A stretch of 64,000 bases of DNA, taken from positions 3,225,106-3,289,105 of the forward strand of contig CP030759.1 of the NCBI GenBank assembly GCA_003290465.1. The letters run 5' to 3'. Positions 38,028-63,662 of the stretch are shown in pieces; positions within the stretch are counted from its first letter, which is position 1; the number at the start of each line of letters is the position of its first letter. The DNA comes from Candidatus Sumerlaea chitinivorans. GTDB taxonomy: Bacteria > Sumerlaeota > Sumerlaeia > Sumerlaeales > Sumerlaeaceae. Both the position numbers and the translations under genes were made by a program. Under the pieces are notes generated by a model that did no database searches, was not told the origin of the DNA, and saw only the letters and a program-made list of their open reading frames with translations.

Positions 38028-38622
38028 TGTTCGTTACTCCTTATCGATACGCAAATGTCGCCTAAGTAAGCTGCTGAAGACTCAAACCGCACTACGCAGG
38101 CGCATTAGTGCTATTAGTCTACTAAACTAATAGATTATTATTCGCTACCTACGAAACTTTATTCAAGGGGCCACCGCGCAGCACGGTTCCCATTGCGGCT
38201 CCCAAGACAAAAATTCCTCACTCGAAGCGTCGCGTACTTCCAATGCACTTTTTGGGACTCCACGAATCTGATCGAACCCGAACCCTTGATGCGACCGGTC
38301 AATAATGGTGGCTCCGAGATGGTAAAAATCGCCTTTTGTCCCTACCGGGGCGCGTTAGTGGCCGCCCTTATTGAGTCCTTCTCGTGGTATCGTGACTGCT
38401 CTTGGTCACGTACTGGGTCGCTCGTCACCCACCGGTTTTTTGAGTGGGCAGAATCTGAAAAAAATCTGAAAAAATCGGTGTTCAACTTCCACTCGCGTCT
38501 TGCTTCAGAGCACGCGCTGACCCAGCCAAGGATTCTACTCTTGATCGTTTCTCCAAGAGTTCCCTATGCGAGTCTTACGAGGGAAGCGTAGCTTCAACTG
38601 CCCCCAAGGAGTATTCCGAACC
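38028..38622 (-). other. Intergenic region between sat and the ligase gene
   Basis: About 595 bases separate the divergent sat and ligase genes. The sat-proximal half holds the promoter/operator described separately. The ligase-proximal half contains a 132-codon open frame without ribosome site, motif or plausible composition, which I leave out. AAGGAG at about 38606 is the ribosome site for the ligase GTG. Confidence 0.5.
38111..38166 (-). promoter_or_regulatory. Candidate sat promoter with overlapping operator palindrome
   Basis: On the minus strand TTGAAT (38166-38161) and AATAAT (38142-38137) are separated by 18 bases and match -35/-10 elements at four and five of six positions. Directly downstream, across the expected start site, lies a perfect inverted repeat: CTATTAGT (38111-38118) and its complement (38126-38133) around a 7-base spacer. 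This is a classic repressor position, about 85-105 bases before the sat start codon. The cognate regulator is unknown. Confidence 0.6.
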
Positions 38623-40839
38623 GTGATTTGGAAACTCGCCCGCATTCTCGCGTTTGGAAGCGCCGTACTCTTAGCCGTCCTCGCTGCTTCGTCTTTCATC
38701 GTCATCCCTTACTCGCTTTTTGAAGCGTACCCGAGAGCCATCTGGTTGCTGACGGCGTGTGCGCTTCTCGGGGCAATGCCACCCCGCCGCTGGGTGCCAG
38801 TCCTATGTCTGCTCACCGTCCTTTATCTGGCCTCGTTCAAATTTCTCTCTGATAGCCGTTGGGCATCACTGAGCACTGTGACCGCTGACCCGACAACTTA
38901 TCCAAACTCATCTGTAGGGCACTTTGCGATCATCCTGCTTGTCGCCGGCGTGTATGCGATCGCGTGTCGAATCTTGCCCGACATGCGCACTTACGTGCGG
39001 CGGTTCTTCGTCGGTTACGTGGCGTGCCTAAGTGCCCTTGCCTTGGCCGACTTCGCAAGCGTACAATTCGCCAATTCCTCTCTTGTCCTCTCCGGGCGAG
39101 ATTTTAACAAGATTGACTGGGTGGTACCCCGCGACAGCATGGGGTTCTACACGGGAGCCTACCGAAGTGCTGCAATCGCACTTTACCCGAACCTTATGGG
39201 GAATTTGATTTTGCTTATCTGGCCTCTGACCGTAGCGGGGTTGGCGCAGCGTCGTTCCTCGCTCGAACCTCTTGGCCGGAGTCTTTATCGGCGCGTGGCA
39301 CGCTTTCTTCCGTTGATCTTGCTCGTACTCATGGTCGGCGCGCTGCTCGTCACTTACAGCCGGTCGGCGTATGTCGGATTCCTCCTTCAGTGCTTCGCCC
39401 TCCTTTGTGTTGCGGGGCGAGGAGCTTCCCCCCGTGAGAAGGCGTTGTCCCGGACGCTTATCGTTGGCGCGTGCGGCGTGTTTGTGATTGGCTTAGCGGT
39501 GGTACCTTATGGACTGCGGCGCCTCATCGCTTCTGTGGATCTCCAAGACGCCTCGGTTACCAACCGACTTTCCGCGTGGGAGACAATTTTGTGGGCGGTC
39601 GCGGAGCGCCCTTACAGCGGTTGGGGAAATCTCGCCCCCTCCGTGCTCCTACCTCGTTATACGTTAGCACCGGGGCTTCCCGAGGGCCCGTATCTTTTGG
39701 TACATAGCGAGCTTGCGTCGCTCCTTTGTGCCACGGGAGTTCCAGTCTTAGGGCTTATCGCCCTTGCTGTTTTCGGGTTTGCCTGGCGTTGGCATTGGAG
39801 TTTTCTCCTGCCGCGGTTGGCAGTCGCGGGGAGCTTGGTCTCGTTGTCTGCGGAGAACATGTGGCAGATCGGGATGTATGTATTCATCCTTGGCTTTGTA
39901 TTGGGGGAAGTCTTGCGGACCGGCGGCGAGGTCGAGGCGAGTGTTACGAGGGGATTGAGGTTGGCTGCACTACGCAGACGGGGCGACTGGCTGCTGTGGT
40001 TGCGGCGTCCGGGGATATTGTCGGGTGCCCTGAGCCTCGCGCTCTTGTGCCTTTATCTCGCTGAGTGGCGCCGCCCGTTGCCTTCACCCGATGAGTGGTT
40101 TGCGAAACGCTTGTCGTCGCTCCTTCCGCGCTGGTCAGCGCGCTATGCGTACTGGGTCGAGGACTACACGACGGGCCGGCATTGGAGCTCCGGGGAAGGC
40201 AAAGCTTTTGAAGCGTGGGGGCTGCGCGACCTTGCGGTCGCGTGTGCAGTGGCACAGGTAGAGTTGGAAAAGGAGACGACAGCGTCGTGCCAGATGCCCG
40301 TGCTTGGCGTCGAGCCGGGGTCTCGAGATTGTTCCACGAGTTCCCAGCTGACGTTGGCGAGAGCGCTGAGGAGTGGCTTGAGTGGGGGGGACGAGGCTGC
40401 AATGCGGGCGGTGGAGAGGTGGCTCCGAAATCGACCGCTTCCTGAGTTTATGCGTGAGACCACAGGCAGTTTGTTTAGCGGAGAGGGCGGTTTGGTCTTG
40501 GAGGCTCGCGAGGTTGCACGTCTGATGGAAGGACTCACGAAATCGGATCGTTTGCTCGGAGCGGTGGCGCGGGATGCGCTCCTCAACCGCGAACCGCGGC
40601 TGGGTTTAGCCCGGTGGTTGGACGGACAGTTCGCAGCGCGAGCTTATTCCTACACGGACGGTGGGGATACGTACGTCTACGATGTGGTGAGGGTCAAGGG
40701 GGCTGGGGCCGATTGGATCGCGGTAGTGCTGATGGAGACGCGACGGGAAATCCCCACACGCGACTCTCCGGAATGGAGAGCGCTTGCACGGTTCGGCTGG
40801 ACCTGTGCCCGATATCTTGGCGGCGTATATTCCAACTAA
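38623..40839 (+). CDS. O-antigen-ligase-like membrane protein fused to a degenerate beta-lactamase-like domain
   Basis: A GTG at 38623 with AAGGAG upstream gives 738 residues. Residues 1 to about 490 are a polytopic Wzy/WaaL-type unit: a LLVTYSRSAYVGFLLQ motif, NRLSAWETILWAVAERPYSGWG, and a loop before the last helices. Residues about 503-738 look like a class-A beta-lactamase fold: YWVEDYTTGRHWSSGEGKAF, then where SXXK should be AWGLRDLA, SGGDEAAMRAVERWL in the SDN-helix region, LEAREVARLMEGL, and a final strand pair (TYVYDVVRVKGAGADWIAVVLME). All catalytic positions are substituted. It likely polymerises or attaches a surface glycan, with the C-terminal domain as a binding module. The beta-lactamase assignment is my reading of the pattern. 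Confidence 0.72.
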   Translation: MIWKLARILAFGSAVLLAVLAASSFIVIPYSLFEAYPRAIWLLTACALLGAMPPRRWVPVLCLLTVLYLASFKFLSDSRWASLSTVTADPTTYPNSSVGHFAIILLVAGVYAIACRILPDMRTYVRRFFVGYVACLSALALADFASVQFANSSLVLSGRDFNKIDWVVPRDSMGFYTGAYRSAAIALYPNLMGNLILLIWPLTVAGLAQRRSSLEPLGRSLYRRVARFLPLILLVLMVGALLVTYSRSAYVGFLLQCFALLCVAGRGASPREKALSRTLIVGACGVFVIGLAVVPYGLRRLIASVDLQDASVTNRLSAWETILWAVAERPYSGWGNLAPSVLLPRYTLAPGLPEGPYLLVHSELASLLCATGVPVLGLIALAVFGFAWRWHWSFLLPRLAVAGSLVSLSAENMWQIGMYVFILGFVLGEVLRTGGEVEASVTRGLRLAALRRRGDWLLWLRRPGILSGALSLALLCLYLAEWRRPLPSPDEWFAKRLSSLLPRWSARYAYWVEDYTTGRHWSSGEGKAFEAWGLRDLAVACAVAQVELEKETTASCQMPVLGVEPGSRDCSTSSQLTLARALRSGLSGGDEAAMRAVERWLRNRPLPEFMRETTGSLFSGEGGLVLEAREVARLMEGLTKSDRLLGAVARDALLNREPRLGLARWLDGQFAARAYSYTDGGDTYVYDVVRVKGAGADWIAVVLMETRREIPTRDSPEWRALARFGWTCARYLGGVYSN

Positions 40840-41439
40840 AAGAAGAGAACCGTTAAACCATGGAAACGAAATCTGAATCTATTCGTAAATGGACCACGCC
40901 TGCGACTCTTTTGTTTTGCATAAGTTTTGATATCTTGTTATCATTACATCAAGTTGATTATCAAAACTCAACGTGCTTAGAAGTTGCGCTTGAGGGGTGA
41001 AGTGGGCGTGTTACTTCGGAGAGACCTTGCTCGCAGACTGACTTTTGTCAGTGCTGTAGGGTTCTGCAAGAAGTTCCATCGGACACAAGAAGGAAATTCA
41101 ACGCGCGACCGCAGACGGTGAACTTGACCGCTAAGGTGAATCTCTGGAAACGGGTGGTAGCGCCCCGCCGTAGGTGAAGGTCCCGCTTCGTAGCTCTTGG
41201 CCTGTGGCGCTTGAGGGCATGCTCGACGTGGAAGCTGAGAAACCCGGTGCTTCCTCCTCCGCTTCCGCCTGCAAGTCCTCGGCGCCTGCCCGTGAGGAAG
41301 GAGACAGAACAAACTCTGCCTTGTCGCGGTCCAGCGGAAAAAAACAGAAAAATGACACGGGATGTGAATTGTTTTTACCTTGTACGCGAGCGACGAGGGG
41401 GAAATCGAAACGTTTTATTTCATTCAGGAGGGTCGACCC
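40840..41439 (+). other. Non-coding stretch after the ligase gene, carrying a gene fragment
   Basis: About 600 bases have no intact gene. The A/T-rich section near 40910-40980 could hold a promoter. The section 41145-41303 is a decayed fragment of the downstream gene family, described separately. The ribosome site GGAGGG at about 41426 belongs to the next gene. Confidence 0.5.
41145..41303 (+). pseudogene. Decayed 3' fragment of the DUF1573-associated gene family
   Basis: The DNA matches the last 150 bases or so of the genes ending at 43983 and 46725, including GTGAAGGTC, CTTGAGGGCATGCTCGACGT and CTTCCGCCTGCAAGTCCTCG. In frame, the Gln codon CAG has become a TAG stop (near 41172). A one-base deletion in the GGTGGCCCC run shifts the frame before the end. 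Similarity to the 43983 copy continues about 40 bases past the stop codon (GAGGAAGGAG). The rest of the copy is absent. Confidence 0.8.
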
Positions 41440-41874
41440 ATGAGAACCCAGCGAATCCCGGAAGCAGTGAAGGAAGGTAAAACGTCAGTAATTGTGCAAG
41501 GGGGACAGGCTAAGAGTCTTGTGCTTCCTGCCTTCGGAAAAATGCCCAAGGCCTTTCTTAGGATCTTTTTGCTATACGTGGGTTTTTTGTGCACCCATAA
41601 CATCGCGACGGCTGGGAAGGTCGGTTTCTGCACGTGGTCAGGGGATGATCAGATTTGTGCGTCTTGGATCTGGAAAGATCCCGGAGCTGACTGTCCAAAG
41701 ACCTACGTGCCACGCATTACTTGTGGGGTTTGCTATGAGTTTCCCTGGTGGTATGAGGAGTGTCCATGGTGCGAGAAGCAGACATATTGGTGTCGTTACG
41801 TCCCTGAAAGCTATGAGATCTGCAGAAAACAATTTGAGGTGCCCTTCGACATAATCACGGGCGATTGCCCATGA
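41440..41874 (+). CDS. Secreted Cys-rich protein of unknown function
   Basis: The ATG at 41440 follows AGGAGGG. The 144-residue product has a basic, hydrophobic leader (FLRIFLLYVGFLCTHNIATA, about residues 38-57), after which comes a short mature part of about 85 residues. It contains about ten cysteines among many Trp and Tyr (GVCYEFPWWYEECPWCEKQTYWCRY). Cys spacing suggests a disulfide-rich extracellular domain. I know no family. A later start (ATG at about 41542) would give a standard signal peptide. It is 21 bases before the next gene, so the two are probably one operon. Confidence 0.65.
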   Translation: MRTQRIPEAVKEGKTSVIVQGGQAKSLVLPAFGKMPKAFLRIFLLYVGFLCTHNIATAGKVGFCTWSGDDQICASWIWKDPGADCPKTYVPRITCGVCYEFPWWYEECPWCEKQTYWCRYVPESYEICRKQFEVPFDIITGDCP

Positions 41875-41895: not shown

Positions 41896-42915
41896 ATGAT
41901 AAGCATGCGAAAAAGCAAGGTGGTGTTACTTTCTGTCTTAGCCATGTGTGCTGTGAAGGTGGGGGCTGGCGAGTTGAAGTTTTTTCAGGTGCCACCCAAA
42001 GCAGTTTATTGGTACACCACCGTAGACTCTAACGGGGAGACGTGGGAAAACGCTGTTGCCTGTTACGAACCTTACTATCTTCGTGGTCAGGGGATCCGTT
42101 TGCAAACCCGTTCCCAATCTTACACGTTTCCACTGAATGCGAAGGGATTCGTAAGTAGCTTCGCATTCTCGCTTCCCATTGGATGTGGTGCCTTGACGGT
42201 GTCTCCCAAAGGGTTTTCGTTCCTAACATTTCACAACTCCGACGAATGTTCAGGCTATGAGCTCAAGGACGGGCAAAAGGTGTTCTTGCCAAACGGGTGG
42301 TGGGATAGTGTGCTCAGCCACGTTGTTCCAACTCGCCAAAACCTCCATCGAATTGAAGAGAGAGGGGAGAGAACCCTCGCGGTGGGGGTGAACCGTTACG
42401 GGGAAGATCTAACCTGTGAGTTTGATCAAGGTGGGTACTTGGTGGCAAGTGTGGCGAAACGACCTGCCAAGCGTGACCCATCGAATTGGGTCGCGGAGGG
42501 GCGTTTTGTGTGGTCGCCTCAGCAGTGCGCGGATTTCCCCGCGCAAATTGCAATTTCACTGCAGTGGAACGGGCGAGTGCAGAGCCAAAGCACGATGACG
42601 ATCACTCGCTATCAGCCTTTGAACAGCGTGGAGGATCTTCTCGCGCTGACGGAGGTTCCCAAAGGAACACGCGTAAGGGATGTTCGCTACCGTACCGAAT
42701 GGACGCTTCAGGATAAAGGTTGGCCGACGGAGTCTGAGGTCCGGGCAGCAGCTCGTCATTCGGTACGAACCACGCCCGTAGATCAGCCGCCATGGTGGCT
42801 TGCTATTTATCGGTTCACTTTAACCCATGGAGTGACGCTCCTGATTGCAGCGGGTGTTGTCCTTTTGGGCTTTGGAGCTATCCAATTACTATTGAGGCGC
42901 AAAAAAAGAGATTAG
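41896..42915 (+). CDS. Periplasmic domain with C-terminal membrane anchor, paralogue of the first half of the 44569 gene
   Basis: The 339-residue protein has a signal peptide (VVLLSVLAMCAVKVGAG), a body of about 270 residues and a C-terminal helix plus basic tail (LLIAAGVVLLGFGAIQLLLRRKK). The body aligns with the N-terminal half of the protein at 44569: ACYEPYYLRG with ACYEPYWARA, PLNAKGFVSSFAFSLPIGCG with PLNAKGFAKSFSFSLPIGAG, RYGEDLTCEFD with WFGEEITCYFN, and SVEDLLALTEVPKGT with SVDELLDLLEVPAGT. Function is unknown. It ends 7 bases before the frameshifted DUF1573 gene. Confidence 0.72.
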   Translation: MISMRKSKVVLLSVLAMCAVKVGAGELKFFQVPPKAVYWYTTVDSNGETWENAVACYEPYYLRGQGIRLQTRSQSYTFPLNAKGFVSSFAFSLPIGCGALTVSPKGFSFLTFHNSDECSGYELKDGQKVFLPNGWWDSVLSHVVPTRQNLHRIEERGERTLAVGVNRYGEDLTCEFDQGGYLVASVAKRPAKRDPSNWVAEGRFVWSPQQCADFPAQIAISLQWNGRVQSQSTMTITRYQPLNSVEDLLALTEVPKGTRVRDVRYRTEWTLQDKGWPTESEVRAAARHSVRTTPVDQPPWWLAIYRFTLTHGVTLLIAAGVVLLGFGAIQLLLRRKKRD

Positions 42916-42922
42916 CCATACT

Positions 42923-43983
42923 ATGATGCGTCAGACTGAGGAAAGTGGGTGGCAGAAGAGCGGGACACTTCTGTTTCTGCTCGTCGGGAGTCTTCTAATC
43001 GCTTTCGGAATTGGGCTTCAAGTCTTGCGATCGGCTGCCCAACATAAACAAGTTCCTTATCAGGTAAATGTAAATGAGCCGCCTAACAGGATTGATTGCG
43101 ACCTTGGTGTTTTGCAGATTGGCGACGATGTGACCACGGAAATCGAAGTTGTAAACACGACCTCGCGAGTTCTTAGCTACCAGAGGGCGGGATGTAGATG
43201 CAGTAATCTTCGCGTTGTCAGCTCGGCGACCAGAATTTCACCAAATCAGAGCGCAACGCTCAAAGTCCATCTTATACCGCAAAGAAGCGCCCCCTGCTTG
43301 AGCAACTTTTGTTCGTTGACGATGAGGGGGCAGTACGCCTCAGGGTAGACGTGACAGCTCGGGTGTTGGCGTCGTGTGAGCCGGATCCGGCGCTGCTGGA
43401 GATTCGGGTGGATCCCGCATATCAGCGCCCTGACGTGGTGCTGGGTGAGTTTGCGTTGGTGTGTCGTGAGGAGTCGTTAGCGCCGCGGGGGATGGAGTTT
43501 TGTGTGGAGCAGCCGTGGGTGAAGTGCCGCCGAATCGCGAAAGAGGGGGATCGGGTTCGTTATCAGTTGCGTCTGACGGATGTTCCGCCGGTGGGTGAGC
43601 ATGAGCTTGTGTGGTGTTCGCCACGCGGGCAGGGTCGGCGGTCGTTTCAGCCGGATTTGCCGGTGGTGCGTTTGCGTGTGGTTTCGCCGGTGAAGGTGGA
43701 GCCAGCGGTGTTGGATTTGGGGATTGGTCGGGTAGGGAAGGAACTGGTGGGTCGGGTTTCGGTGGGTGACTCGGCGACGAGTGTGACGGTACGTCCGGGC
43801 CCGGGGTGGGATGGGGAGGTCGCGAGCTACCGGGTGGAACGCGAGGGAGGAGTGCCGCAGGTGAAGGTCACGCTTCGCAGTTCGCGGCCAGAGGCGCTTG
43901 AGGGGATGCTTGATGTGGAGGCCGAGCAGCCCGGTGGCCCCCTCCACCGCTTCCGCCTGCAAGTCCTCGGCGCCTGCCAGTGA
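42923..43983 (+). pseudogene. Frameshifted membrane-anchored DUF1573 gene
   Basis: The first part (42923 to about 43290) encodes a membrane helix (TLLFLLVGSLLIAFGIGLQVL) and a DUF1573-type domain (CDLGVLQIGDDVTTEIEVVN ... GCRCSNLRVVSS). The frame then breaks. One added base in the CCCCC run at 43290-43294 would rejoin it as SAPLLEQLLFVDDEGAVRLRVDVTARV, matching GPFGEQLYFKNSKGQAFIVLDVTARV in the intact gene at 44569. The second part (to 43983) is open to its own stop and nearly identical to the end of that gene. It may be a true pseudogene, an assembly indel or a slippage site; the two reading frames could also be separate proteins. Confidence 0.8.
43348..43983 (+). repeat. Near-identical 0.64-kb direct repeat, copy 1
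   Basis: This segment begins sharply at GACGTGACAGCTCGGG and runs to the stop codon. It matches 46087-46725 almost base for base, with scattered substitutions and one 3-base indel near 43848. The translations differ at roughly 15 of about 211 positions by my count. DNA before the boundary is only distantly similar between the two genes. Confidence 0.92.
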
Positions 43984-44568: not shown

Positions 44569-46725
44569 ATGAGGGTTGGGCTTATCGCAAAAGCGGTCTT
44601 ACTCTCGTCATTCGTGAGTTTGATGTCAACGGGAGGGCATTGCCGAGACGTTACGTTGTTGATCCCCGAAATACCAACTCGTGCGGTAGTAGAATGTGAG
44701 AGCGTGAGAGCCTCGGAGCTCAATTGGTCCAATGCATCACCACCGTTTGTTAGATCGGCGCCCTACATGATATGGGCTTGTTACGAGCCGTACTGGGCGC
44801 GAGCCATTGGCGTAGCCGATTTACGCCGTGGTGAGAGCACGGTACCTCTGAACGCGAAAGGCTTTGCGAAAAGTTTTAGTTTTTCGCTCCCCATTGGTGC
44901 GGGCGACTTCTCTGCACCGGCCGGGAAAGCTCAACTACCGATTCTTCAGTTTACTGGGGATCCTCAAGGTGGATACGTAACCAGTGAGGATGGTGTTCGG
45001 TTATTTGGGCCCGTGCCATTTGTCTACGAGATCCTATACATGATGTTGCCACAATCACGGACCCTGAAAGGGCTTACGGATACCCATTCCGAGCGTAGCT
45101 GCACGGCGAAAAATTGGTTCGGAGAAGAAATAACATGCTATTTTAATGCGGACCGAAAACTTAGCCGCACCACCGTAAGTGGGAGCAAAGACCCTCGGTG
45201 GAATCGCGAGGCCCATTTTGAGGGGGTGGGAACGTTCGTAGGGAATTTCCCGTCAAAGATCATCTATAGTTGGAGAGCGGGAGAACGTGGTAATATCACA
45301 ACGATAACAGTCAAAAGCCTGAGGCCTCTTGCATCGGTCGATGAGCTTCTTGATTTGCTTGAAGTGCCGGCCGGGACGTGGGTGCAAGATTACGGGACAG
45401 GTTGGGAAACGACGAAACCGGGGCTACCAACCCTGCAAGAACGTCACGCGCACGCTCGAAAAAGGTTAAAATCTTCTCCACAAACCACTGCGGGAAAAGT
45501 GCTCTTCGCGGTCGTTGTGTGGGGCTATTCGTACGGTTATGTGGTCCCACTGAGTCTCGGCGCGGTTTACATAATCCTAGCAGTTGCGCGGGTATTTCGC
45601 AGACGGTTCATCTATCGCTCTGCAGGCGATTCCCTGGGCTCATTGCAGGAAAATAATCGAACTCGCGGAAACGTTGGCTTGGTTCGGTTGTCGCTCGGTG
45701 TCCTCCTATTGTTTTGTGGAGGTGCACTCTGGTTTCTCACAAGGCCACAAGGAAGCACTGCGTCGTTTCCCTCTTCTGATCACGAGGAGCAAATCCGAGC
45801 AATGATCGAAGCGGCGCGCAAGCGTGTGGAGGTGGAGTTAGACTTAGGCGTTGTGGGGAGTCGGGAGGGAGCGACGACGGAGGTTGTGGTGCGCAATCCG
45901 GTGCCCGAGCCGCTGACGTTTGAGCGCGCGATGCGCTGTGATTGTCTGAGTGTTCAAGTGGACCCGTCGCCGATTCCGCCGCTCGGGGAGGCAAAAGTGA
46001 CGGTTTCGCTCAAGCCACGCGAAAGCGGTCCTTTCGGCGAACAGTTGTACTTCAAGAACTCGAAGGGGCAGGCATTTATCGTGCTCGACGTGACAGCTCG
46101 GGTGTTGGCATCGTGTGAGCCGGATCCGGGGCTGCTGGAGATTCGAGTGGATCCCGCGTACCAACGCCCTGACGTGGTGCTGGGTGAGTTTGCGTTGGTG
46201 TGTCGTGAGGAGTCGTTAGCGCCGCGGGGGATGGAGTTTTGTGTGGAGCAGCCGTGGGTGAAGTGCCGCCGAATCGCGAAAGAGGGGGATCGGGTTCGTT
46301 ATCAGTTGCGTCTGACGGACGTTCCGCCGGTGGGGGAGCATGAGCTTGCGTGGTGTTCGCCACGCGGGCAGGCTCGGCGGTCGTTTCAGCCGGATCTGCC
46401 GGTGGTGCGTCTGCGTGTGGTTTCGCCGGTTAGGGTGGAGCCAGCGGTGTTGGATTTGGGGATTGGTCGGGTAGGGACGGAACTGGTGGGTCGGGTTTCG
46501 GTTGGGGACTCAGCGACGAGTGTGACGGTATGTCCGGGCCCCGGGTGGGATGCGCAGATCGCGAGCTATTGCGTGGAACGCGACGGCAGTGGTCCGCCGC
46601 AGGTGAAGGTCACGCTTCGGAGTTCGCAGCCAGTGGCACTGGAGGGCATGCTCGACGTCGAAGCCGAGCAGCCCGGCGGCCCCCTCCACCGCTTCCGCCT
46701 GCAAGTCCTCGGCGCCTGCCAGTGA
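44569..46725 (+). CDS. Membrane-anchored DUF1573 protein, fused form
   Basis: The 718-residue protein looks like a fusion of the two upstream genes. Residues 1 to about 300 follow the 41896 protein (signal peptide, ACYEPYWARA, PLNAKGF). Residues about 308-345 and 375-395 are membrane helices. Residues about 424-510 are DUF1573 (LDLGVVGSREGATTEVVVRN ... RAMRCDCLSVQVDPSP), and the remainder is two further beta-sandwich units ending RLQVLGACQ. The last 212 residues are nearly identical to the end of the frameshifted gene. It is probably a surface or periplasmic scaffold of unknown role. The ATG is 12 or so bases after GGAGG. Confidence 0.78.
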   Translation: MRVGLIAKAVLLSSFVSLMSTGGHCRDVTLLIPEIPTRAVVECESVRASELNWSNASPPFVRSAPYMIWACYEPYWARAIGVADLRRGESTVPLNAKGFAKSFSFSLPIGAGDFSAPAGKAQLPILQFTGDPQGGYVTSEDGVRLFGPVPFVYEILYMMLPQSRTLKGLTDTHSERSCTAKNWFGEEITCYFNADRKLSRTTVSGSKDPRWNREAHFEGVGTFVGNFPSKIIYSWRAGERGNITTITVKSLRPLASVDELLDLLEVPAGTWVQDYGTGWETTKPGLPTLQERHAHARKRLKSSPQTTAGKVLFAVVVWGYSYGYVVPLSLGAVYIILAVARVFRRRFIYRSAGDSLGSLQENNRTRGNVGLVRLSLGVLLLFCGGALWFLTRPQGSTASFPSSDHEEQIRAMIEAARKRVEVELDLGVVGSREGATTEVVVRNPVPEPLTFERAMRCDCLSVQVDPSPIPPLGEAKVTVSLKPRESGPFGEQLYFKNSKGQAFIVLDVTARVLASCEPDPGLLEIRVDPAYQRPDVVLGEFALVCREESLAPRGMEFCVEQPWVKCRRIAKEGDRVRYQLRLTDVPPVGEHELAWCSPRGQARRSFQPDLPVVRLRVVSPVRVEPAVLDLGIGRVGTELVGRVSVGDSATSVTVCPGPGWDAQIASYCVERDGSGPPQVKVTLRSSQPVALEGMLDVEAEQPGGPLHRFRLQVLGACQ
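46087..46725 (+). repeat. Near-identical 0.64-kb direct repeat, copy 2
   Basis: This is the partner of the repeat at 43348-43983. The copy lies inside an intact gene and encodes residues 507-718 of its product. The distance between the copies is about 2.7 kb in direct orientation, so recombination between them would delete the intervening gene. Confidence 0.92.
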
Positions 46726-55583: not shown

Positions 55584-56963
55584 TTACAAGTCCGGCCAGA
55601 GCGTTGCGCGGACTTTTCCCGCCGCTAGCGTGGAGGTAGAGCTAAGATTGCCCTCGCCAGCGGCAGTGACTGTGATTTCGCCCTCGCCAGCGCGGAATTG
55701 GTAATCGCCGAGCTTGACCCACCGGTCATGGACTTTGCGTTGGTCCACCGTGCGCGATGAAACCCCGTCGGTATGGCGAACCGTGTAGAGCACTTTCGTG
55801 CGCGAATCGCGAGCGGGATAGCGCGCGCACACCTCATATTTCCCGTCCTTCGGCACGCCAAGTCGCCATGTAGCGCTTGGCGTCGTTTGCTGCGACGCCA
55901 CTGCGACGCGTGCCGTCACCCCGCTGGTTTCTTCGTCACTCCAAACGCCGGCGCAAGCAAACGATGTTCCGTCGTCGCTGTCGGTGACGATGCGAGTGGG
56001 CGGGAGGCCGACGCCGAGGCCTGTTTTTGCGATGAGGAGTTCCATAAACTCACCGAGTTGCGAACTGTCGTGCGGATCGGGATCTGAACTGTAGGGTAGG
56101 CAAAATGCGTTACTGAAGGCCGCCACAATGCACTCTTTGCCATTGGGTAAAACCACATAGGCGATGTCCTCAAGGGTGTCGTACGCCAAACCGGGTTTGT
56201 TGTAGTAGCGGCTGCCGGGCGGGAGTCCAAAACCCAACACACTGTTGGATTTCCAGCGGTCGTGATTGAGAAGCTCCATCATGTAGTCCCGAGCGTCGGG
56301 TTCGATTGCCCCTTTTACAATCTCCAACATGAGCGAGGCGCTGAGGCGGGGTTGCATGAGATTCTTGCCGAACACGTCCCGCGCCACCTTCTCGGCTCCC
56401 CGCGGCCATTCTCCGGAATTCGTGGGGTAAGTCTTGTGCAAAATCACTTGGTTTCCGAGCAATCCCCGCTCGTCCAGCCAGCGGGCTGTATAGCGACGGC
56501 GCTCAATCCACTCACTCCAGCGTGGGTCGGTCGTTGAAGTCAGATCGTCGATGTTCGGGGCGCTGGTGATCGCGTCTACCACCACACCCGTTTGAAAATT
56601 GTCCGATTTCTCGATCATTGGCCGGACAGCGTGGTCGAGGTGAGTGTAGGGCAAACCGTGTTCTCGGCACCAGTGCATTGCGGCGGCCATATAAGCAAGC
56701 TTGACGCAGCTTGCAGGGTAAGCGACCGCGTCGCCGTTGAAGCTTCCGCGTCGCCAGGAGCCATCCTCGGCGGGAATGAGAATGGTGGCATCCAGTCGGT
56801 CGAAGGGTTTGTTGCGCATGAACTCCGCGCGCGCTTCGGCAACTGCCGCGTCCAGCAGTGGGTCATCCACAATTTTGAATGCTCTCGTGTCCGCCCTCAA
56901 TGGTGTCCACATGCTCCCCGTAAGAACAAGTAACGAAGCGACCAACGCGTTCCGCCACGCCAT
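55584..56963 (-). CDS. Secreted serine hydrolase of the class-A beta-lactamase fold with golvesin-type C-terminal domain
   Basis: The ATG at 56963 follows AAGGAG at ten bases and begins a signal peptide (NALVASLLVLTGSMWTPLRA), giving 459 residues. The catalytic motifs are intact: Ser-Lys in YPASCVKLAYMAAAM (SXXK), SDN in EKSDNFQTG, and KXG in NKPGLAYDTLEDIAYVV. The last 120 residues form a golvesin/xanthan-lyase-type domain (GVWSDEETSGVTARVAVASQ, GKYEVCARYPA, WVKLGDYQF). It could be a beta-lactamase relative or a peptidoglycan or ester hydrolase. Nothing points to antibiotic resistance specifically. The neighbours are unrelated. Confidence 0.85.
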   Translation of the reverse strand: MAWRNALVASLLVLTGSMWTPLRADTRAFKIVDDPLLDAAVAEARAEFMRNKPFDRLDATILIPAEDGSWRRGSFNGDAVAYPASCVKLAYMAAAMHWCREHGLPYTHLDHAVRPMIEKSDNFQTGVVVDAITSAPNIDDLTSTTDPRWSEWIERRRYTARWLDERGLLGNQVILHKTYPTNSGEWPRGAEKVARDVFGKNLMQPRLSASLMLEIVKGAIEPDARDYMMELLNHDRWKSNSVLGFGLPPGSRYYNKPGLAYDTLEDIAYVVLPNGKECIVAAFSNAFCLPYSSDPDPHDSSQLGEFMELLIAKTGLGVGLPPTRIVTDSDDGTSFACAGVWSDEETSGVTARVAVASQQTTPSATWRLGVPKDGKYEVCARYPARDSRTKVLYTVRHTDGVSSRTVDQRKVHDRWVKLGDYQFRAGEGEITVTAAGEGNLSSTSTLAAGKVRATLWPDL

Positions 56964-57179
56964 TTTGTGTAGTCTCCTTGAGTAGAGCTGCAAACGCCTC
57001 GACGCCAACCGGTTAGAATTGGCGAGTTGCGCACCACGCACTATTCGCTGGACTGCATACGTGGATGCTCGGCAGCCACCTCTTGTGCTCTCGCGGATCC
57101 AGGAGAGTTGTCAACAGAATCGCTTTCGAATACTTCTCAAGTGAATCACGCAACGTGACGGCGTGTGGCTTCAGGTAGC

Positions 57180-60338: not shown

Positions 60339-62714
60339 TTAGTAATCCGGTAGATTGCGGAACCATAGCCAGCTTTTGGGTTTTGGGTAAGTAGTAGATG
60401 TGCCGATAGCCACCCCGCGCTGCAGCGGGTCCATTCGCGAGTACACGCAATAAAGTAACCAGCCAATCTCGGCAAACACACGGTTTGCCACATTATCGGG
60501 GCGAGGCGCGATATTCAGACTATGGGTTGCAAAGAGTGCGGCCACCGCCCAAGAACGATCCTGATTGCGATAAATGAGGACCTCCTCGCGCATGTTGCCC
60601 GAGTACCAAGCACAGTGCTCAAGCGCTGGTCCACGCGGGAGGTAGCGGACCAGCCCCAATTCTTCTTGGCTTGCCTTCAACGCATTGCGCATAACCCGAG
60701 CGATGCTTGAGTGGTTGTCATCCGTGAGTGTCACAAAGCTGTGCACGAGCTGCTCCGCTGTCGCGCTCGTGACCCATTCCGCAGCAAGGAAGCGGCGCTC
60801 AGCGTCGTCCTGTACATTTGATCGACCACATACTGTGCAGAGTGGTAGTTCGTGAAGCCCTTGCGCAAACCATGGGTGGCCAAACCAACGCAACGCTGCC
60901 GCGGAGAGTTCCTCTCTGGGGAAGTGCCCAAGGATCGCGGGCAAATAATCCGAATATGGATTCTCTATGAGATGCGCCACCCAGTCGGGTAGAGAAAGGT
61001 TTAGCAAAAAGTGTGTTGGGGCCGCCTTTGAAACGGCGTACTGGTCGACGGCTACGGTCTGTTGTGACTTCTCAGCGGCGACCTGCGCGGCGCAAGCCAA
61101 AGTGGCAAGTACGCTCGGGAATACATAGCGGCCCTCGTTATCTCGCTTAATCCAGTTACCGATATCGACATTAGAGATCGCCTGATGATCAACTTCCCAT
61201 TGGTACCCACTAAATAGATCCATGAAGTGAACCGAAAGAGTCCCCGTGGATTTCTTAAGGATTGCTCTCACACGTTTTGGGAGGCGGTCCTGAAAACTTG
61301 TTGGTGGTAATAGGAAGTTCACGACCCAGAGTATTAGCAATCCCAGTGGCACGAGGTAATGTTTGCCAAGGGAAACATGGTGTCCGGCTGTTCCCCGCTT
61401 CCTCCAAACCTCACTGCGTGCAACCACGAGTCCCCCCATAATCCACAGAGGTAGCAGTAAGGCAAAACTATGATAAAAACTATCTGCGATTACAGGTACG
61501 ACAAGCCCCGCGATAGAAACACGCATCCATGTCGAGAACATCTTCCACGTCGTTGAAAAATGCGTTCCTATGACTACACAAAGAGCAAGTGCAATTCCCA
61601 CCAGCCCCTCGTTCCAGATCCTGAGAGCCAAATGGCTGTGGATGTCAGGATAAAGGTATGCCACGTTGGGAAGCTGGTAAAACATTCCATATAGTATAGG
61701 CCACGTCCCAGCACCGTAGCCGCAAAAAGGACGCTCCAACAAAAAGCTAAATGCTACTTTAAGTAAGTACGTACGATTCGAAAAAGAGCTATCAGAATCA
61801 CCTACCAGAAAACCAAACCGCTGAGTCAGCACGTTTTTCGTGACGACTATCCCAGCAATAAGACCGGCAATAAAGATTCCCGATGCAAAAGCCCACTTCC
61901 TCGTGCCGCCGGCGAAACCCTTCCGTCTCACGGCAACGTAAAGAATACCCACAACCTGAGTGACGAAGCCGAGAACTGCGCTTCGCGTGCCCGAAAGCGC
62001 TAAGCAGATACCGGATAAAAAGACTACGATTAGATAAGTCACCCTAAGGATTCTTTTGGACGCTCGCTGGTACAAATGAGCTGCCGCTGGCCAATAGAAG
62101 ACAGAAATGGCACCTAAAAACACTGGGGAGGGCGTAAGACCCGGCATCCTCGTTCCAGAACCATAGTGTTGTCGGGCATCTAAAAGGCCAAGGACGTAGG
62201 AGAGGCGCTCATTGGGTCCATGGGTGATCAACCAATTTTGAATCGTCGCCGCAGCAAAGTGTGCCACGAGGGCAAAGCACAAAGCGTAAAGCAGCCCACT
62301 TTCGATGCTTAGCCGAATTTCGCTGCTCTGAGCTGCCCAAGTTACGGCAAGAATGCACAACCACATAAAGATGGTGTTTCCATACCACAGATATGCAGCA
62401 ACGTTCGGAAGCGGAGTGGCTGCGACGTAAGCGCTGATTAATGAGCCATGATAAACCGCCAGTGTGCATACCAGCATCGTGCAAGCGAAAGCCACACTGC
62501 GGTAAGTTCCCATCGCAAGAAAGCCGAGGACGGCGAGGAAGGCCAACGGCGCCCATGAGAACCGACCTTGATACATTTCAAGAGGATTCGTGACCAAAGA
62601 CATACTTGTATAATACGGAAAGCTGGCGAGAAAAAGCCACGCAAAGGCGATTGCAAGTAGCCATGTTAGAAGGGGATCACCGCGTCTTTGTTTACCAGCA
62701 GATGTGGAAGTCAC
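60339..62714 (-). CDS. Second O-antigen-ligase-like protein with degenerate beta-lactamase-like domain
   Basis: The 791-residue protein has a membrane block to about residue 470 with Wzy_C features: CLALSGTRSAVLGFVTQ and NRTYLLKVAFSFLLERPFCGYGAGTW, then HSHLALRIWNEGLVGIALAL. Residues about 490-791 follow the beta-lactamase pattern: SVHFMDLFSGYQWEVDHQA, YVFPSVLATLACAAQVAAE at the SXXK site (Ser kept, Lys replaced by Ala), a long helical section, SATAEQLVHSFVTL, and YLPRGPALEHCAWYSGNMREEVLIYRNQ with no KTG. The architecture matches the protein at 38623, but sequence similarity is low. It is downstream of the secreted gene at 62763. Confidence 0.72.
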   Translation of the reverse strand: MTSTSAGKQRRGDPLLTWLLAIAFAWLFLASFPYYTSMSLVTNPLEMYQGRFSWAPLAFLAVLGFLAMGTYRSVAFACTMLVCTLAVYHGSLISAYVAATPLPNVAAYLWYGNTIFMWLCILAVTWAAQSSEIRLSIESGLLYALCFALVAHFAAATIQNWLITHGPNERLSYVLGLLDARQHYGSGTRMPGLTPSPVFLGAISVFYWPAAAHLYQRASKRILRVTYLIVVFLSGICLALSGTRSAVLGFVTQVVGILYVAVRRKGFAGGTRKWAFASGIFIAGLIAGIVVTKNVLTQRFGFLVGDSDSSFSNRTYLLKVAFSFLLERPFCGYGAGTWPILYGMFYQLPNVAYLYPDIHSHLALRIWNEGLVGIALALCVVIGTHFSTTWKMFSTWMRVSIAGLVVPVIADSFYHSFALLLPLWIMGGLVVARSEVWRKRGTAGHHVSLGKHYLVPLGLLILWVVNFLLPPTSFQDRLPKRVRAILKKSTGTLSVHFMDLFSGYQWEVDHQAISNVDIGNWIKRDNEGRYVFPSVLATLACAAQVAAEKSQQTVAVDQYAVSKAAPTHFLLNLSLPDWVAHLIENPYSDYLPAILGHFPREELSAAALRWFGHPWFAQGLHELPLCTVCGRSNVQDDAERRFLAAEWVTSATAEQLVHSFVTLTDDNHSSIARVMRNALKASQEELGLVRYLPRGPALEHCAWYSGNMREEVLIYRNQDRSWAVAALFATHSLNIAPRPDNVANRVFAEIGWLLYCVYSRMDPLQRGVAIGTSTTYPKPKSWLWFRNLPDY

Positions 62715-62762: not shown

Positions 62763-63662
62763 TTACTTGCGCTTAAGCGCAATTACACGGATTACAATGA
62801 TCGCACCCAGCAAAACACCCAAACCAACTACCCATGGGTTTACAGAATATACGTTACGGTAGCGATGACGAAAGGTGCGGTAGGTTTGGTCATTCAGAAA
62901 AGTAAGTCCCTTGGTTAGAGAGGGCAGAATACCGTTGGCGGAAATGTTTGGGCTGATGGGTTCAATATGCTGGATTTGAATGTTGGCAGCTTCAAAATGG
63001 TTACTTAGTCGAATTTGGACTTTTGTCGGAAGTCCAAAGGACCATGGCTCAAATCCTGAGAAATGGACATTAAGAACATCCACCGTTTGGTCTGGGTGCT
63101 CTTTGGTCGGAAAGCTCCGGCGAATCTCAACTAACCTCTTGCTATCAAAACTAAACGACAGTTGCCCATCGAGGAAAAATCCTGCATCTGCACCTGTAGC
63201 TGGCTCTGGGAGGCTAATATGCGTAATTGAACCAGATGACTCGAGCTTAACGGCATCTTGGTTGGCGAGTAACTTGCGCCTTGCATAGGCATAATAATGG
63301 TAGGGGTTATGAGTACTGTAAAAGAGTGTCAGAAATTGCGGGTTGGGCACAAGTTCCGATGGGGCGAAATTGACCCACGCCTGCGTGGCTGTTGTGTCAG
63401 GATGATATTTCGTGACTACGCGTCCTAGCCGATCGCGGATATCGAGAACGATCGTGTCGCCGAAATAGTATGCCGTAATCTCACGTTTGCTCGGTTGTTT
63501 GTCGTTTGGATCCTGGATCGTCGCCACCGCGCGTACTTTTACTCTGGGTACAGTGGTCTGCTCAAGGTAGGGCTGGAGTTCTTCATGGCTTGCACCAAAA
63601 AGGAATCCATTGAGGGAAAGTACTCCAGACAAGATAATGAAACGAAGATGATTTGTGCTCAT
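62763..63662 (-). CDS. Secreted protein with C-terminal membrane anchor, unknown function
   Basis: The 299-residue protein has a signal peptide (FIILSGVLSLNGFLFGAS), a beta-rich extracytoplasmic part with a YYFGDTIVLDIRDRLGRVVTKY strand pair and repeated aromatic residues, and a C-terminal helix with basic tail (VVGLGVLLGAIIVIRVIALKRK). It has the same overall build as the 41896 protein (signal, beta domain, C-terminal anchor). I could not align their bodies. It lies between the small Cys-rich gene and the ligase gene. Confidence 0.65.
   Translation of the reverse strand: MSTNHLRFIILSGVLSLNGFLFGASHEELQPYLEQTTVPRVKVRAVATIQDPNDKQPSKREITAYYFGDTIVLDIRDRLGRVVTKYHPDTTATQAWVNFAPSELVPNPQFLTLFYSTHNPYHYYAYARRKLLANQDAVKLESSGSITHISLPEPATGADAGFFLDGQLSFSFDSKRLVEIRRSFPTKEHPDQTVDVLNVHFSGFEPWSFGLPTKVQIRLSNHFEAANIQIQHIEPISPNISANGILPSLTKGLTFLNDQTYRTFRHRYRNVYSVNPWVVGLGVLLGAIIVIRVIALKRK

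Follow-up and report, generated by a model that had tools for sequence, protein, structure and literature searches.

A Wzy_C membrane protein of Candidatus Sumerlaea chitinivorans fused to a domain of class A beta-lactamase fold that lacks catalytic residues

A single gene of Candidatus Sumerlaea chitinivorans joins a GT-C-type O-antigen-ligase/Wzy-like membrane protein to a C-terminal homologue of class A beta-lactamases (Beta-lactamase2) that is devoid of catalytic residues, as is shown here by computational means. As a structural statement about this protein, designated P0001, the combination of fusion, class A fold and loss of catalysis is close to certain. The architecture of domains is new, the class of system is not. 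A search of the open-access literature retrieved no published description of a ligase/beta-lactamase-fold fusion, in line with the original prediction, to which no such family was known. All coordinates refer to the window, i.e., the whole stretch of 64,000 nucleotides that was analysed.

The fusion gene and its ligase half

The gene and the features of its membrane part are as follows.

38566-40839, plus strand: Wzy_C/pseudo-beta-lactamase fusion gene, type A (P0001); intact open reading frame of 757 aa, 13 predicted transmembrane (TM) segments, C-terminus outside
39319-39759, plus strand: Pfam Wzy_C (O-antigen ligase) region, PF04932, residues 252-398, enclosing the family-invariant R266, R334, H380 and S381
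40012-40068, plus strand: last predicted TM helix, residues 483-501, placed by hydropathy and positive-inside count, with the soluble domain directly after it

The reading frame of P0001 extends without interruption from an ATG at 38566 to the stop codon at 40837-40839; this start replaces the GTG at 38623 that had been assumed before. Its identification as an O-antigen-ligase-like membrane protein holds, the protein being polytopic and matching Wzy_C with an E-value of 1.2e-14 and a score of 54.7 bits against a curated Pfam cut-off of 31.7. Among all Pfam families considered at E-values up to 10, Wzy_C is the sole match, so that the protein does not belong to the SEDS family (GT119). Hydropathy predicts the 13 TM segments, and lysine and arginine are enriched at the N-terminus as well as in a 32-residue loop (8 K/R) preceding the last TM helix. 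For these reasons, the polar invariants and the C-terminal domain are predicted to lie on the same, periplasmic side of the membrane. The residues unchanged in all six family members are concentrated in the ligase half (R200, R266, R319, R334, H380 and S381), and R200, R266, R334 and H380 fall outside according to the predicted topology, which thus provides conserved arginines and a histidine on the periplasmic face. In GT-CB O-antigen ligases, arginines bind the diphosphate and a histidine activates the acceptor (PMC10920833). The P0001 invariants resemble R191, R265 and the histidine of WaaL in kind of residue. The ligase half of the fusion protein is apparently catalytically competent, as judged from these residues. 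Eleven Wzy_C loci are present in the genome (3.29 Mb, one contig). The other Wzy_C proteins read in this genome do not carry such a domain, and two of them (L001 and L007) end in repeat-rich tails of TPR-like appearance.

Relatives and distribution

Searches with P0001 identified relatives in three more genomes from the family to which this bacterium belongs, and the window itself contains a second copy; the fusion, which the original prediction had proposed to seek in other genomes, thus recurs. The six proteins fall into two sequence types, A (P0001, L010 and L011) and B (P0002, L012 and L013), type B being represented in the window by the following features.

60339-62714, minus strand: second fusion gene, type B (P0002), 791 aa, recognised by a Wzy_C match, a domain profile match and leave-one-out homology
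60342-61310, minus strand: type B pseudo-beta-lactamase domain with PSVLA in the SxxK region and an added CxxC (CTVC), as located by alignments

Of 40 Sumerlaeota genomes, four, which belong to one family, contain the domain according to its profile; among about 345 genomes outside this phylum (386 genomes in all) it is absent, both as a free-standing copy and as a fusion. Within the phylum, no PF13354 match occurs on a frame that also matches the ligase profile. With P0001 alone as query, no related loci were found in the genome contigs searched, and the alignment of all six members was too divergent to yield patterns; the type A alignment retrieved two, both from Sumerlaeota. Not all copies are intact. 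In L011 (G006:C10, L090), an in-frame TAG cuts off roughly the first 154 residues, and a gene for a C39-like peptidase follows; L055 (8425-9599 on G001:C15) is an additional copy of the fusion gene in a decayed state, lying within a few kb of the intact type B gene. A further Wzy_C protein, L058 (6238-8418 on G003:C35), has a tail alike in length and start and is a possible third type, the homology of the tail not being demonstrated by sequence comparison. At 55584-57041 (minus strand), 3.3 kb away from the type B fusion, the window also encodes a Beta-lactamase2 protein in its own right, which has an SCVK motif and a Golvesin_C domain.

Fold of the C-terminal domain

40072-40836, plus strand: residues 503-757, a domain of class A beta-lactamase fold whose catalytic residues are lost, assigned by an AF2 model, Foldseek, VIA, profile-profile comparison and a whole-PDB profile search

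A class-A-beta-lactamase-like domain had been proposed for the C-terminus from the pattern of strands and helices. Both its nature and its C-terminal placement are borne out, whereas its start lies at 40072 rather than 40120, about 50 bases further upstream. Pfam and NCBIfam searches with the P0001 domain alone yield no significant match. The domain of L011 alone does match PF13354 (Beta-lactamase2) with E=0.002, which is below the curated cut-off, and ranks class A beta-lactamases first in a PDB sequence search, though at E=1. A profile of seven tails, aligned by hhalign to 22 genuine Sumerlaeota Beta-lactamase2 domains, reaches a probability of 96% and a score of 70 over 238 columns, whereas its shuffles score no more than 16. 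Over all reversed and column-shuffled controls, the ceiling is about 18 with six or seven members and 20 with type A only, so the beta-lactamase matches stand far above the background against which they were to be judged. Among 60 column shuffles made from the type B profile, a single one scored 139.9; this value was not reproduced, 150 fresh shuffles giving at most 18.7, and it is treated as a glitch, albeit an unexplained one. The type B profile alone matches beta-lactamases weakly (score 31.6), and the assignment of type B to this fold is based on its homology to type A (95.7% in profile-profile comparison).

Searches that were not directed at beta-lactamases point to the same fold. When a full-length family profile was compared with all PDB sequences, 59 of the 60 matches listed were beta-lactamases, aligned to the tail, with a best E-value of 0.0032. 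Outside the family, the domain profile has only two matches in the 386 genomes. These come from two genomes of other phyla and resemble serine beta-lactamases of the ordinary kind, in which SLIK or SIIK, SDN and KTG are intact. Since no beta-lactamase had been used to build the profile, this constitutes an unprompted assignment. The AlphaFold model of the P0001 domain has a pLDDT of 74.1 and a pTM of 0.77; it draws on an alignment of four sequences, and the other four of the five models scored only 53-58. The Foldseek matches listed for this model are all class A beta-lactamases, from E=1.4e-9, as the original prediction expected, and no other fold was assigned. VIA-align superimposes the model on 6v4w with a Z of 18.7 and an rmsd of 3.4 over 222 residues, PBP-A being close behind, and returns class A beta-lactamases or PBP-A exclusively. 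A second model, led by the L011 domain (L090), has a low pLDDT of 54; again, its listed matches are all class A beta-lactamases. Taken together, profile, whole-PDB and structure evidence establish the class A fold beyond reasonable chance. That the domain has some other alpha/beta fold, misread by pattern and unrelated to beta-lactamases, would fit the empty single-sequence Pfam search but is largely refuted by the convergence of profile, PDB and model evidence, with suitable controls, on one fold, and is highly improbable.

Loss of the active site

40219-40230, plus strand: SxxK equivalent, reading GLRD (domain residues 50-53), from hhalign against Sumerlaeota Beta-lactamase2
40387-40395, plus strand: SDN equivalent, reading GDE, from the same comparison
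40645-40659, plus strand: KTG equivalent within YSYTD (YSY or YTD, the alignment being uncertain by two residues), from hhalign and the sequence

The motifs S-x-x-K, S-D-N, E-x-x-L-N and K-[TS]-G were sought in the sequence of the P0001 domain and none is present; SxxK, SDN and KTG/KSG, by which a functional class A enzyme would be recognised, are all lacking. The earlier view that every active-site motif is replaced and KTG is missing is therefore correct, except that the SxxK position is occupied by GLRD, one residue later than the WGLR given before. This correction leaves the conclusion intact: as judged from its sequence, the domain is catalytically dead by class A chemistry. The relatives of type A have GWAR/NDD and TLSK/NSN at the SxxK and SDN positions, and L011 (TLSK, NSNRAANALL) looks like a halfway form. 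In type B, the SxxK position reads PSVLA, PSVIA or PSVLA; the serine may be kept one position off, and the lysine is lost. All three type B domains (60342-61310 on the minus strand, L012 and L013) contain a CxxC insert and an REE motif, both absent from type A, which possibly form a disulfide or a metal site.

Role of the domain

The reading we favour, at a probability of about 0.5, is that the domain serves as a non-catalytic docking or gating domain in the periplasm, on an active ligase or polymerase. The C-terminal domain would be positioned in the periplasm near the active face of the ligase half, which would still move an undecaprenyl-diphosphate-linked glycan onto an acceptor. The pseudo-enzyme domain would perform no chemistry but dock on the periplasmic loops and, once docked, either hold the acceptor or a partner protein or gate the activity. 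Such a layout would resemble that of a SEDS glycosyltransferase with its class B PBP, in one polypeptide and with an inactive penicillin fold. SEDS proteins and O-ligases have clan GT-C1 in common, and class B PBPs are the working partners of SEDS proteins (PMC10920833, PMC10449877), which makes the analogy a reasonable one.

The strongest competitor, though an improbable one, is that the domain is a relic, i.e., a beta-lactamase-like domain captured by chance that has become a structural cap without a specific role. The disappearance of all catalytic residues and the broken state of some copies would fit this explanation, as would the greater divergence of the domain between types (identity of about 12-20% between types A and B, compared with 19-30% for the membrane part). 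Within type A, however, two of three pairs show the domain at least equal to the ligase half in conservation: P0001 and L010 are 35% identical in the domain and 23% in the membrane part, P0001 and L011 31% and 28%, L010 and L011 23% and 26%. Within type B, both parts are about equal in identity, and an intact domain is found in both paralogue types. Since a useless appendage should outpace its carrier in divergence, conservation at about the level of the ligase half argues that the domain is not decaying debris. Few genomes carry it, an in-frame stop interrupts the G006 copy and a copy in G001 has decayed, so the domain is dispensable in places. The topology of the membrane-part tree is weakly supported and was not used.

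Somewhat less probable still is a ligand sensor that would still bind, but not be acylated by, a peptidoglycan stem, a muropeptide or a beta-lactam in the former pocket and would report the state of the cell wall to the ligase. The retained fold speaks for it, and the fusion protein has the layout of BlaR1, in which a polytopic membrane part is followed by a periplasmic domain of penicillin fold at the C-terminus. However, sensors of the BlaR1 type retain the acylating serine and lysine, and the P0001 domain, with GLRD at SxxK, has no acylatable serine of the BlaR1/MecR1 type. Moreover, KTG is lost and the SxxK position varies (GLRD, GWAR, TLSK, PSVLA). The original prediction had suggested that the domain might bind peptidoglycan stems or a lipid-linked glycan and so guide the ligase. 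As the pocket residues vary even among close relatives, binding of stem peptides in the former acylation pocket is less likely.

New chemistry in a rebuilt pocket, involving for instance the conserved PSV[LI]A and CxxC of type B, is less plausible again. P-S-V, CxxC and R-E-E are invariant among type B members, but type A has none of them, and no catalytic-looking set of residues is common to both types, R181 and W243 being the only domain residues invariant across them.

Neighbouring genes as candidate partners

If the domain is a docking or gating module, the best candidates for a partner would be the adjacent secreted, membrane-anchored proteins or the DUF1573 proteins. In the window, these are the following.

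41896-42915, plus strand: possible partner, secreted and anchored by its C-terminus, encoded 3' of the type A gene; homology to the partners of type B not demonstrable
42923-43983, plus strand: membrane-anchored protein of DUF1573-like type whose frame is apparently broken in two by a frameshift near 43310 (PF07610, E=2.2e-4 for 42923-43348, below cut-off)
44569-46725, plus strand: 718-aa protein, in part similar to 41896-42915 (30% identity to 41896-42912), followed by DUF1573 (PF07610, E=4.8e-6)
62763-63662, minus strand: secreted protein with a C-terminal TM segment and a basic tail, a putative operon partner whose gene immediately precedes the type B gene at a distance of 48 bases; partner homology weak

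The type B genes and L011 have upstream of them a gene for a secreted protein that ends in a TM segment and a basic tail, L010 and L058 one for a DUF1573 protein. Downstream of the type A gene of the window come genes for a secreted protein rich in cysteine, for an anchored protein and for DUF1573 proteins. That one family of partners is conserved next to every fusion gene is unproven: leave-one-out probabilities range from 2 to 72%, and the 41896/44569 pair of the window is unlike the others. The partner profile matches only the four genomes that carry the domain, a result that is circular to that extent, and it has no convincing match among solved structures. A shared partner of the fusion proteins is therefore only a lead. 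The 3' part of 42923-43983 shares 89% identity with the end of 44569-46725, the 5' part being only about 30% alike, which suggests gene conversion or partial duplication of these tandem DUF1573-type genes. The small protein encoded at 41380-41874 (plus strand) has a signal-peptide-like start and a Cys- and Trp-rich remainder, e.g., CGVCYEFPWWYEECPWCEKQTYWC, and belongs to no convincing family in Pfam or NCBIfam.

Comparison with known systems

With the O-antigen ligases and Wzy polymerases of the Wzy_C family (PF04932; WaaL, CAZy GT121, clan GT-C1), the fusion protein shares an above-cut-off Wzy_C match, the polytopic structure and a long periplasmic loop with invariant arginine and histidine; it adds a TM helix and a 255-residue C-terminal domain of beta-lactamase fold. 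With class A beta-lactamases and PBP-A (PF13354, Beta-lactamase2), it shares a nearly full-length, collinear profile match and the predicted fold. In contrast to these proteins, its domain lacks SxxK, SDN, ExxLN and KTG, and while class A beta-lactamases are free secreted enzymes, it is tethered to a membrane glycosyltransferase-like protein. A match to a beta-lactamase-like profile here indicates neither resistance nor a hydrolase, which should serve as a warning for annotation.

The fusion protein offers a clean natural case in which the beta-lactamase fold is kept without its chemistry and is covalently tied to a transferase of lipid-linked glycans. BlaR1 and MecR1 are likewise polytopic membrane proteins with a C-terminal periplasmic penicillin-fold domain, yet they keep the acylated serine and a metalloprotease where the fusion protein has a glycosyltransferase-like part and no nucleophile. 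The pairing of a GT-C clan enzyme with a periplasmic protein of penicillin-binding fold is shared with SEDS proteins (RodA/FtsW, GT119) and class B PBPs. Here, the two reside on one polypeptide, the enzyme is of the Wzy_C/O-ligase kind, and the fold is of class A, without pedestal and with an inactive site; this is an analogy, not SEDS membership. Such a single-chain, chemistry-free version could allow the scaffolding role of the penicillin fold to be separated from its transpeptidase role. It is conceivable, though we would not count on it, that a glycosyltransferase of the Wzy/WaaL clan has independently gained a partner of penicillin-recognising fold in cis, as a purely non-catalytic activator or acceptor clamp. 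If so, the SEDS-PBP arrangement would have been invented in parallel for a surface glycan, and the penicillin-recognising fold would be able to regulate GT-C enzymes without transpeptidase chemistry.
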